A DNA stretch of 64,000 bases from contig JAUXUD010000035.1 in the NCBI GenBank assembly GCA_030680835.1, forward strand, positions 1 to 64,000, written 5' to 3'. This DNA comes from Bacteroidota bacterium (GTDB lineage Bacteria; Bacteroidota; Bacteroidia; UKL13-3). Made by a program: the position numbers and the translations under genes. Under the pieces are notes generated by a model. That model did no database searches and was not told the origin of the DNA. It saw only the letters and a list, made by a program, of their open reading frames with translations. Shown here in pieces: positions 46,839-48,782 of this stretch. Every line of letters starts with the position of its first letter. Position 1 is the first letter of the stretch.

Positions 46839-47243
46839 TTATTTGGGAAGCTGAACTCCAAAAACAATGAGCATTAATGCCACAACAATGGCAAGAAGCA
46901 AAGCAATCCGTAGGGGTTTCATAATTGATTTCTTTTCGTGCTTTTTTTCATCCGGAAAATACTTCCGGTAATAATATTCAACAATAACAGCTCCACCTAT
47001 TAAGTTGCTTGCAAAAATTATTGCAAACCCTGCCATAAACTTTGTGCTGATCAATGCCGTAATCATAAACAGGGAAATAGAAAATAGCAAGGCTTGAAAG
47101 CCAGCTTTCCGCTCATTGATATCCAGTAAGTTTTGCCTGAGCATCACCCCGCCAAATATTGGGTTCACAAAAATACAAAATCCCAAAACCACCATTTTTG
47201 AATATATCGGAGTTACATTATTTGTTTTTTGAGATTCTTCCAT
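46839..47243 (-). CDS. Hypothetical membrane protein
   Basis: 134 residues with about four hydrophobic helices: MVVLGFCIFVNPIFGGVML, GFQALLFSISLFMITALI, FMAGFAIIFASNLIGGAVIVEYYY and, after a Lys-rich loop (FPDEKKHEKKSIMKP), IALLLAIVVALMLIVFGV. No family recognised. It is in the same direction as the symporter, 99 bp upstream, and is preceded by the 125-bp palindrome. It may be a small transporter partner, which is only positional inference. Confidence 0.7.
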   Translation of the reverse strand: MEESQKTNNVTPIYSKMVVLGFCIFVNPIFGGVMLRQNLLDINERKAGFQALLFSISLFMITALISTKFMAGFAIIFASNLIGGAVIVEYYYRKYFPDEKKHEKKSIMKPLRIALLLAIVVALMLIVFGVQLPK

Positions 47244-47275
47244 TTCTATTTTAATTAGTGTTTGTCATGTGGTCC

Positions 47276-47400
47276 AGAGTCTGAGCTAGAATGTTCACTG
47301 GCAAGGCATGCGAAGTTCGTAAAAAGCGCAGTTTACTAGTGTAAATGAGCATTTTTACGAATAAGCATAACGCAGCCAGAGGACATTATAGACAGACTCT
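47276..47400. repeat. 125-bp imperfect palindrome (MITE-like)
   Basis: Ends AGAGTCTG (47276-47283) and CAGACTCT (47393-47400) are perfect inverted copies. Moving inward the arms keep matching in order: ATGT, CTGGC, ATGC, TTCGTAAAAA and TTTAC, each with its inverted partner, around the central loop TAGT (47337-47340). Small substitutions and single-base indels separate the matched blocks. It starts 2 bp after the stop codon of the M28 peptidase gene. Confidence 0.85.
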
Positions 47401-47402
47401 AA

Positions 47403-48782
47403 TTATAACCCGTATTGACTCAAAAGCCATACCAAAACCGCAATATTCGCTGCACCCAGTTCCAATTCGCGCTTACTTACTTTATCAAACGTATCAGTTT
47501 CACTATGGTGTAAATCAAAATACCGTTGCGAATCGGGACCAAAACCAATGAGTACTATATTTTGTTTTTTAAGCGGACCAATATCAGCGCCCCCACCGCC
47601 CTCGGCAAATTCCTGAATACCATAAGGTTTAAAAAGCATTTCCCAACTTTTTAGTTTTAACATTTGAATGCTGTCACAACTTACACCAAAACTCCTGGGG
47701 GTAAATCCTCCTGCATCAGATTCTATTGCTGCCACATGCTTTTCTTTGTTTTGTCCGGCCAATTCGGCATATTTTTCTCCGCCCCGCAAACCATTTTCTT
47801 CATTTATAAACAACACACAACGGATACTTCGCCTGGGTTTTATGCCAAGTGTTTTAAACAAATGCAGCACCTCCATGCTTTGCACACAACCCGCCCCATC
47901 ATCATGCGCTCCGTCACCATTGTCCCATGAATCCAGATGTCCGCCTACCAAAATAATTTCATCGGGTTTTTCTGAACCGTTTATTTGTGCGATTACATTA
48001 TACGACAAAACTTCCGGCAGCATTTCGCAGCTTTGTTTAAAATAAAAACTCAGGTTTGGATTTTGTTTTAATTCTCTGCTCAGTACTTCGGCGTCATAGG
48101 TGCTGATGGCACAGGCCGGAATTTTTACCACACTATCCAGAAAACGCATGGCACCCGTATGCGGGTATATATCTATATTGCTGGCCATAGAGCGAACTAC
48201 TACGCCCAGGGCACCCAGATTTGCCGCCTCTATTGCCCCGCTGCTGCGTTGGTTTACAGCATCCCGGTATGCCTCAAAAGTTCGTATATATAAAGGATTC
48301 ATCGGGCGGTTGAAAAACACTATTTTCCCGTTTATTTTATCTCTTCCCAATTTGTGTAACTCGGCAAAATCTTTAACCTCTATGATATTGGCCATCAACC
48401 CGTTTTTTGAAGTAGCGATGGCATTTCCCAAAGCACAAATATGCACGGCCGTTTTGCCTGAACCGTTCATAAACCAGGCTTCTTCCTTCTCACCCCGCAC
48501 CCAATGCGGCACCATTACGGGTTGCAACCATACGCTGTCGAAACCTTCATTTTTTAATGTTTGGACTGCCCATTCAACTGCCCTGGCTGCCTGTGGTGAA
48601 CCGCTTAAACGACCTCCGATTTTATTGCTCAGGTAATCGAGTCGTTCGTAGCATTTCCCATTTAAAAGTTCTTCGTTAACAATCATTCTTATCTTTAGTG
48701 AATCGGTTTGTGCATTGACATTGTATACACAAAACCAAGCAAACAGGCATAAGATAAAAAGAAAGTATTTTATTGAAGGCAT
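47403..48782 (-). CDS. M28 family metallopeptidase with PA domain
   Basis: 459 residues. Signal peptide ending NVNAQ near residue 24. The PA domain at about 130-220 and the peptidase from about 240: zinc ligands in VGGHLDSWDNGDGAHDDGAG (His, Asp) and NEENGLRGG (Glu), then SDAGG and the C-terminal HHSETDTFDKV His. M28 enzymes of this group are exopeptidases (aminopeptidase or carboxypeptidase Q type) that act outside the cytosol. Lies divergent from the gene at 48894. No T9SS domain is present. Confidence 0.92.
   Translation of the reverse strand: MPSIKYFLFILCLFAWFCVYNVNAQTDSLKIRMIVNEELLNGKCYERLDYLSNKIGGRLSGSPQAARAVEWAVQTLKNEGFDSVWLQPVMVPHWVRGEKEEAWFMNGSGKTAVHICALGNAIATSKNGLMANIIEVKDFAELHKLGRDKINGKIVFFNRPMNPLYIRTFEAYRDAVNQRSSGAIEAANLGALGVVVRSMASNIDIYPHTGAMRFLDSVVKIPACAISTYDAEVLSRELKQNPNLSFYFKQSCEMLPEVLSYNVIAQINGSEKPDEIILVGGHLDSWDNGDGAHDDGAGCVQSMEVLHLFKTLGIKPRRSIRCVLFINEENGLRGGEKYAELAGQNKEKHVAAIESDAGGFTPRSFGVSCDSIQMLKLKSWEMLFKPYGIQEFAEGGGGADIGPLKKQNIVLIGFGPDSQRYFDLHHSETDTFDKVSKRELELGAANIAVLVWLLSQYGL

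Follow-up and report, generated by a model that had tools for sequence, protein, structure and literature searches.

The imperfect palindrome that follows an M28 family peptidase gene in the window (the whole 64,000-nucleotide stretch of Bacteroidota DNA analyzed here) belongs, very probably, to a non-coding, non-autonomous, MITE-like small palindrome whose nearest known kin is YPAL/RU-2 and which would move by the mechanism proposed below. An earlier note had described 125 bp of it and offered a MITE or its remnant, a regulatory RNA, or a large terminator as readings; the first is the one supported, by 29 full copies in the source genome, by empty sites, and by copy-specific 6-bp duplications in relatives.

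Palindrome and element at the M28 locus

The features of the locus, in window coordinates, are the following:

46839-47243, minus strand: downstream gene of the same operon as M28, the adjacency to M28 being kept in congeners
47252-47257, no strand: left direct repeat TAATTA, target-site duplication, by the TANNTA rule from relatives
47258-47399, minus strand (sense of the preceding M28 gene): complete mobile element, 142 bp, from the alignment of the 29 source-genome copies with their flanks
47258-47275, plus strand: outer end GTGTTTGTCATGTGGTCC, left of the palindrome, from the copy alignment
47276-47400, no strand: imperfect palindrome of the earlier note, 125 bp, from folding against shuffles
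47294-47385, minus strand: conserved hairpin core, covariance model R1, 112.8 bits (a self-included score, the window copy being among the 19 sequences from which the model was built)
47391-47399, minus strand: GAGTCTGTC, terminal inverted repeat partner of the outer end GTGTTTGTCATGTGGTCC
47400-47405, no strand: right direct repeat TAATTA, target-site duplication, by the TANNTA rule from relatives
47403-48782, minus strand: M28 family peptidase gene (Pfam PF04389), upstream of the element

Folding bears out the palindrome. As RNA it reaches about -55 to -58 kcal/mol on each strand (z = -7.5), a stability equalled in 0 of 200 shuffles, and as DNA it gives z values of -7.0 and -8.6. It does end 2 bp from the M28 stop, as had been noticed, but its limits are not those of the mobile unit: alignment of the copies in one orientation disclosed a second, more variable end to the left of the palindrome, previously missed, so that the unit runs from 47258 to 47399. 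Terminal inverted repeats (GTGTCTGTC.. versus GAGTCTGTC..) are present in the source-genome copies and in relatives, where the ends read GTGTCTGTCCATAAAGTC and GAGTCTGTCTATAAAGTC and the length from end to end is mostly 142-151 bp. With 43% GC and stops in all six frames, the 142-bp element is non-coding. The target-site duplications for which the earlier note had proposed a check were found as the two TAATTA repeats, the right one including the M28 stop codon TAA (47403-47405, minus strand). The downstream gene has a weak DUF1129-like match, under the curated cut-off. By eye, no transposase-like ORF of at least 60 aa was seen at 43-52 kb, in agreement with the earlier statement that no transposase lies nearby.

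Copies, empty sites and target duplications

This short, non-coding element is multicopy. Sequence searches of the source genome (4.3 Mb, 104 contigs) collected 29 full copies and two to three partial ones, and a covariance model of the core picks up 30 loci there; together with the search of relatives, this makes the element repeated and conserved rather than a single unconserved sequence.

In six congeners, which lack the element, the M28 stop and the start of the next ORF either overlap or are 3 bp apart (the junction in G018 reads TTATAA-CAC-ATG). The congener M28 proteins are 66-76% identical across most of the protein, with the same C-terminus. Since M28 and the next gene directly adjoin in these six genomes, the window copy has inserted at a junction between genes of one operon. 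Another empty site was found in a different family (G055), where a copy has inserted into one of two avd (bAvd) paralogues beside a reverse-transcriptase gene; the intact paralogue displays the sequence without a break, and TAAATA stands on both sides of the insert. The diversity-generating retroelement at this locus (G055:C82, L040:820-4119, with VR at 820-1000, TR at 1801-1981, avd and RT) holds two members of the palindrome family, one of them being the copy that splits the avd paralogue.

The rule is that insertion duplicates a 6-bp target of the form TANNTA. In the younger families, the flanking 6 bp agree on both sides of a copy and vary between copies, the duplicated 6-mers seen being TATTTA, TAACTA, TAAATA, TACCTA, TAAGTA, TAGATA, and TAATTA. 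Exact duplications number 11 of 25 in G088, G417, and G229 against 3.1 expected by random pairing (p < 1e-4), and 11 of 12 copies in Fulvivirga imtechensis, as counted by a script that selects TANNTA sites and is therefore biased toward the rule. For the source genome the figure is 6 of 29 (2.7 expected, p 0.018); these copies are older than those of the younger families, and their duplications have mostly decayed. A 6-bp duplication of TANNTA is what a DDE-type transposase would leave.

Stop codons and orientation

Most copies in the source genome (19 of 29) begin between -2 and +5 bp from the stop of the upstream gene, and in 16 of the 29 the target TA is the TA of the stop codon, against a background of 17 of 338 non-coding TANNTA sites at such stop positions (p = 6e-7, with the expectation set at a generous 15%). 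Similarly, 18 of 39 copies in two high-copy genomes lie at stops, against 4-17% of the non-coding TANNTA sites; all these shares are approximate, since the ORF calls were mechanical. In genus g5, the core starts 13-17 nt past the stop in most copies, and some copies occupy loci common to several species (L055/L056, L057/L065/L066, and L063/L074). When the insertion falls after the TA of a stop, the first G of the element, as read from the sequence, restores TAG and so leaves the upstream protein unchanged. The orientation at stops is 16:0 in the source genome and 10:8 in the two high-copy genomes, and we infer that insertion occurs close to stops in both orientations, with selection acting afterwards.

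Distribution

The core pattern was found in at least 108 stretches, including Alistipes and other Rikenellaceae, other Bacteroidales, Cryomorphaceae, Chitinophagales, and Fulvivirga, as well as one 'Chlorobiota' MAG and one Desulfobacterales MAG. By the covariance model, there are at least 125 copies in Fulvivirga imtechensis AK7, 109 in DOLZORAL124_46_22, and 1-50 in other genomes. The distribution is patchy, with model matches in 15 of the 64 family genomes and, at reduced sensitivity, in 18 of 296 genomes of the phylum. A phage or plasmid origin was rejected, given that the Bacteroidota core pattern is absent among the viral contigs searched and that the plasmid and phage searches returned no match.

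In Alistipes (L080 and other loci), a second hairpin, GGGGATGAC..GTCATCCCC, follows the palindrome at a constant distance, the two forming a composite repeat unit.

Relationship to known elements

The likeness to YPAL/RU-2 lies in a small non-coding palindrome (140-170 bp), dispersed, with empty and filled sites and a target duplication, positioned after genes and transcribed with them (PMC2229807). YPAL itself is a palindrome of about 168 bp. YPAL has no terminal TA, is not A+T-rich, and shows duplications of 3-26 bp (PMC2229807); neither such termini nor such variable duplications are found in the Bacteroidota element, whose TANNTA duplication is fixed at 6 bp and which has terminal inverted repeats and 43% GC. 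Because of these differences, it is a variant of the YPAL kind with a fixed 6-bp target duplication. De Gregorio et al. reportedly observed in 2006 that YPAL is placed closely downstream of stop codons, a habit the Bacteroidota element has as well, and transcripts carrying YPAL are said to be present at higher levels.

The connection to the enterobacterial repeat passes through the copies in family f84, which match an intergenic sequence present in 5375 of 5426 E. coli genomes, at 1-5 places per genome and at about 88% across 59 bp; direct model matches to enterobacterial copies are marginal, at 13-15 bits. The apical core is common to the f84 members and the E. coli/Yersinia repeat, while the outer arms are unrelated between that repeat and the Bacteroidota element. 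A copy in Y. frederiksenii lies between xylA and xylB, and one in Comamonas directly past the stop of an operon gene. By size, count (three YPAL/RU-2 are known in E. coli; PMC2847712), and habit, the E. coli/Yersinia repeat fits YPAL/RU-2, as matched to the published description.

The apical AUGUAC..GUACACUCCGGUU of Rfam RF02228 sX9, a Xanthomonas sRNA, is also common to the f84 members. Copies of f84 score at most 35.6 bits against sX9, below the gathering cut-off of 44, and the window copy has no match. The sX9 model spans about half a palindrome, and sX9 itself (RF02228; L309-L316), by annotation a Xanthomonas sRNA that counts among the most widely distributed sRNAs (PMC9029176), looks like one half of such a palindrome, which suggests that it is part of an element of this type.

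Two other non-autonomous repeats of Bacteroidota are set apart by their descriptions: BrickBuilt of Porphyromonas gingivalis carries a minisatellite (PMC4596501), and MITECca01 of Cardinium is a 240-bp IS982 derivative (PMC9769881). No paper in the open-access library that was searched describes the Bacteroidota element.

Hairpin core: regulatory RNA or terminator?

The alignment of the core comprises 43 sequences from across the phylum. It has four near-invariant blocks, CGTTATGCT, TCATTTAC, GTAAACTCC, and CTTCGCAAGCCT, which are internal-loop motifs, set between stems that vary on both sides, with double changes in 12 of the 15 scored pairs and 94.5% of cells paired. Covariation in the core is 0.554, against 0.154 in shuffled alignments and at most 0.145 in slid ones. 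Changes in the stems were 143 double and 6 one-sided, counts that do not represent independent events, as the sequences are related. The rarity of one-sided changes suggests pairing at the DNA level, as a hairpin, a cruciform, or arm-to-arm correction. The hairpin is strand-asymmetric, with an A-tract, a hairpin, and a T-tract at its apex. Between families the core is conserved and the ends are alike only in their first few bases, the opposite of the usual MITE.

Covarying stems with invariant internal-loop motifs would also be expected of a structured regulatory RNA, an sRNA or 3'-UTR family related to sX9 that is conserved by function and only incidentally mobile; the sub-threshold match of the f84 copies to sX9 and the retention of copies at orthologous positions in genus g5 agree with this. 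Nevertheless, we consider it unlikely: the changes are nearly all from one Watson-Crick pair to another, unlike those of most RNA families, the distribution is patchy with a very variable copy number, and sX9 itself resembles half of such a palindrome. An Rfam search of the focal region gave no match.

Slightly less probable still is an intrinsic terminator working in both directions, which arose or came under selection at the ends of genes, its copies persisting because they end transcription. Copies do sit directly past stop codons, the apex has the tracts just described, and eight source-genome copies have a further CCCCCGATAGCTATCGGGGG stem within the loop. Nonetheless, the sequence common to the copies extends well past a terminator, there are target duplications and empty sites, the window copy interrupts an operon in which congeners have the two genes directly adjoining, and a simple sigma-70/terminator scan found nothing at this copy. 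Both functions, which the earlier note had offered as readings in their own right, may persist as secondary roles, in the 3' UTR and at the apex, but they fail to explain the dispersed copies and the empty sites, for which a MITE-like element accounts.

The CCCCCGATAGCTATCGGGGG palindrome within the hairpin loop was seen in L012, L013, L022, L024, L025, L027, L028, and L039, some eight copies of the source genome.

Search for a helper transposase

No parent transposon bearing the ends of the element was found among the genomes searched; draft genomes often lack transposons. Searches for an autonomous copy by end patterns, made in the source genome and in seven named genomes and then across 395 genomes of the class, returned only short elements or solo ends. 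A 1.59-kb end pair in G088 proved to be two separate elements flanking an ordinary gene, and three stray end-like sites in the source genome have no transposon inside.

A REP-type element moved by an HUH (Y1, RAYT) transposase would share the hairpin with bulges and the intergenic location, REP ends are able to supply TAG stops (PMC3733652, PMC6006769), and the family has many Y1 genes. We judge this improbable, considering that REPs are 20-40 bp long and that HUH enzymes leave no target duplication, in contrast to the 6 bp found here, and that 30 Y1 genes had no core within 1.5 kb, save for one marginal match. A RAYT helper gained no support, none of the Y1 genes examined being flanked by the palindrome repeat; the three Y1_Tnp genes of the source genome (L217, L218, and L219) each sit amid their own unrelated REP family. 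Finally, an integron attC-like recombination site, also an imperfect palindrome past a stop codon and of fixed orientation in the source genome, is very improbable and was rejected, since the copies are dispersed singly and not in cassette arrays, the adjoining genes are ordinary operon genes present without the element in congeners, other genomes have both orientations at stops, and there are target duplications.

Proposed mechanism and implications

For the MITE-like palindrome, we propose that a transposase acting in trans would recognize the ends, the hairpin, or both, make a 6-bp staggered cut, and paste the element in. Where it inserts at the TA of a stop, its first G would remake TAG with no change to the protein. 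The insert would then become the 3' UTR of the upstream gene and, in the M28 operon, set two cistrons apart by a hairpin. As part of the upstream gene's transcript, this long hairpin probably changes how stable the message is or separates the operon's cistrons; by analogy, it is likely to affect message stability or to cause partial termination. The single orientation in the source genome would reflect later selection. We put forward only tentatively, as a rather doubtful extension, that the insertion machinery itself prefers the stops of real genes in both orientations, that the DNA hairpin, which is conserved between Bacteroidota and enterobacteria, is the recombination substrate, and that the element, YPAL, and sX9 form one ancient superfamily with a shared enzyme.

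Small mobile palindromes, known from enterobacteria, are hereby extended to a second phylum, where copy numbers exceed 100 in the richest genomes, and the Bacteroidota element gains a clear target rule (TANNTA, often over a stop codon) and a defined hairpin core. Its movement and choice of stop codons can now be tested in Fulvivirga imtechensis AK7, which is a cultured isolate. Annotation of these genomes should take into account that numerous TAG stops and 3' UTRs derive from insertions.

Four congeners (L031, L032, L034, and L035) carry a single copy with the same core and different arms, located in all four species directly past the terminator of an rplS-looking gene.
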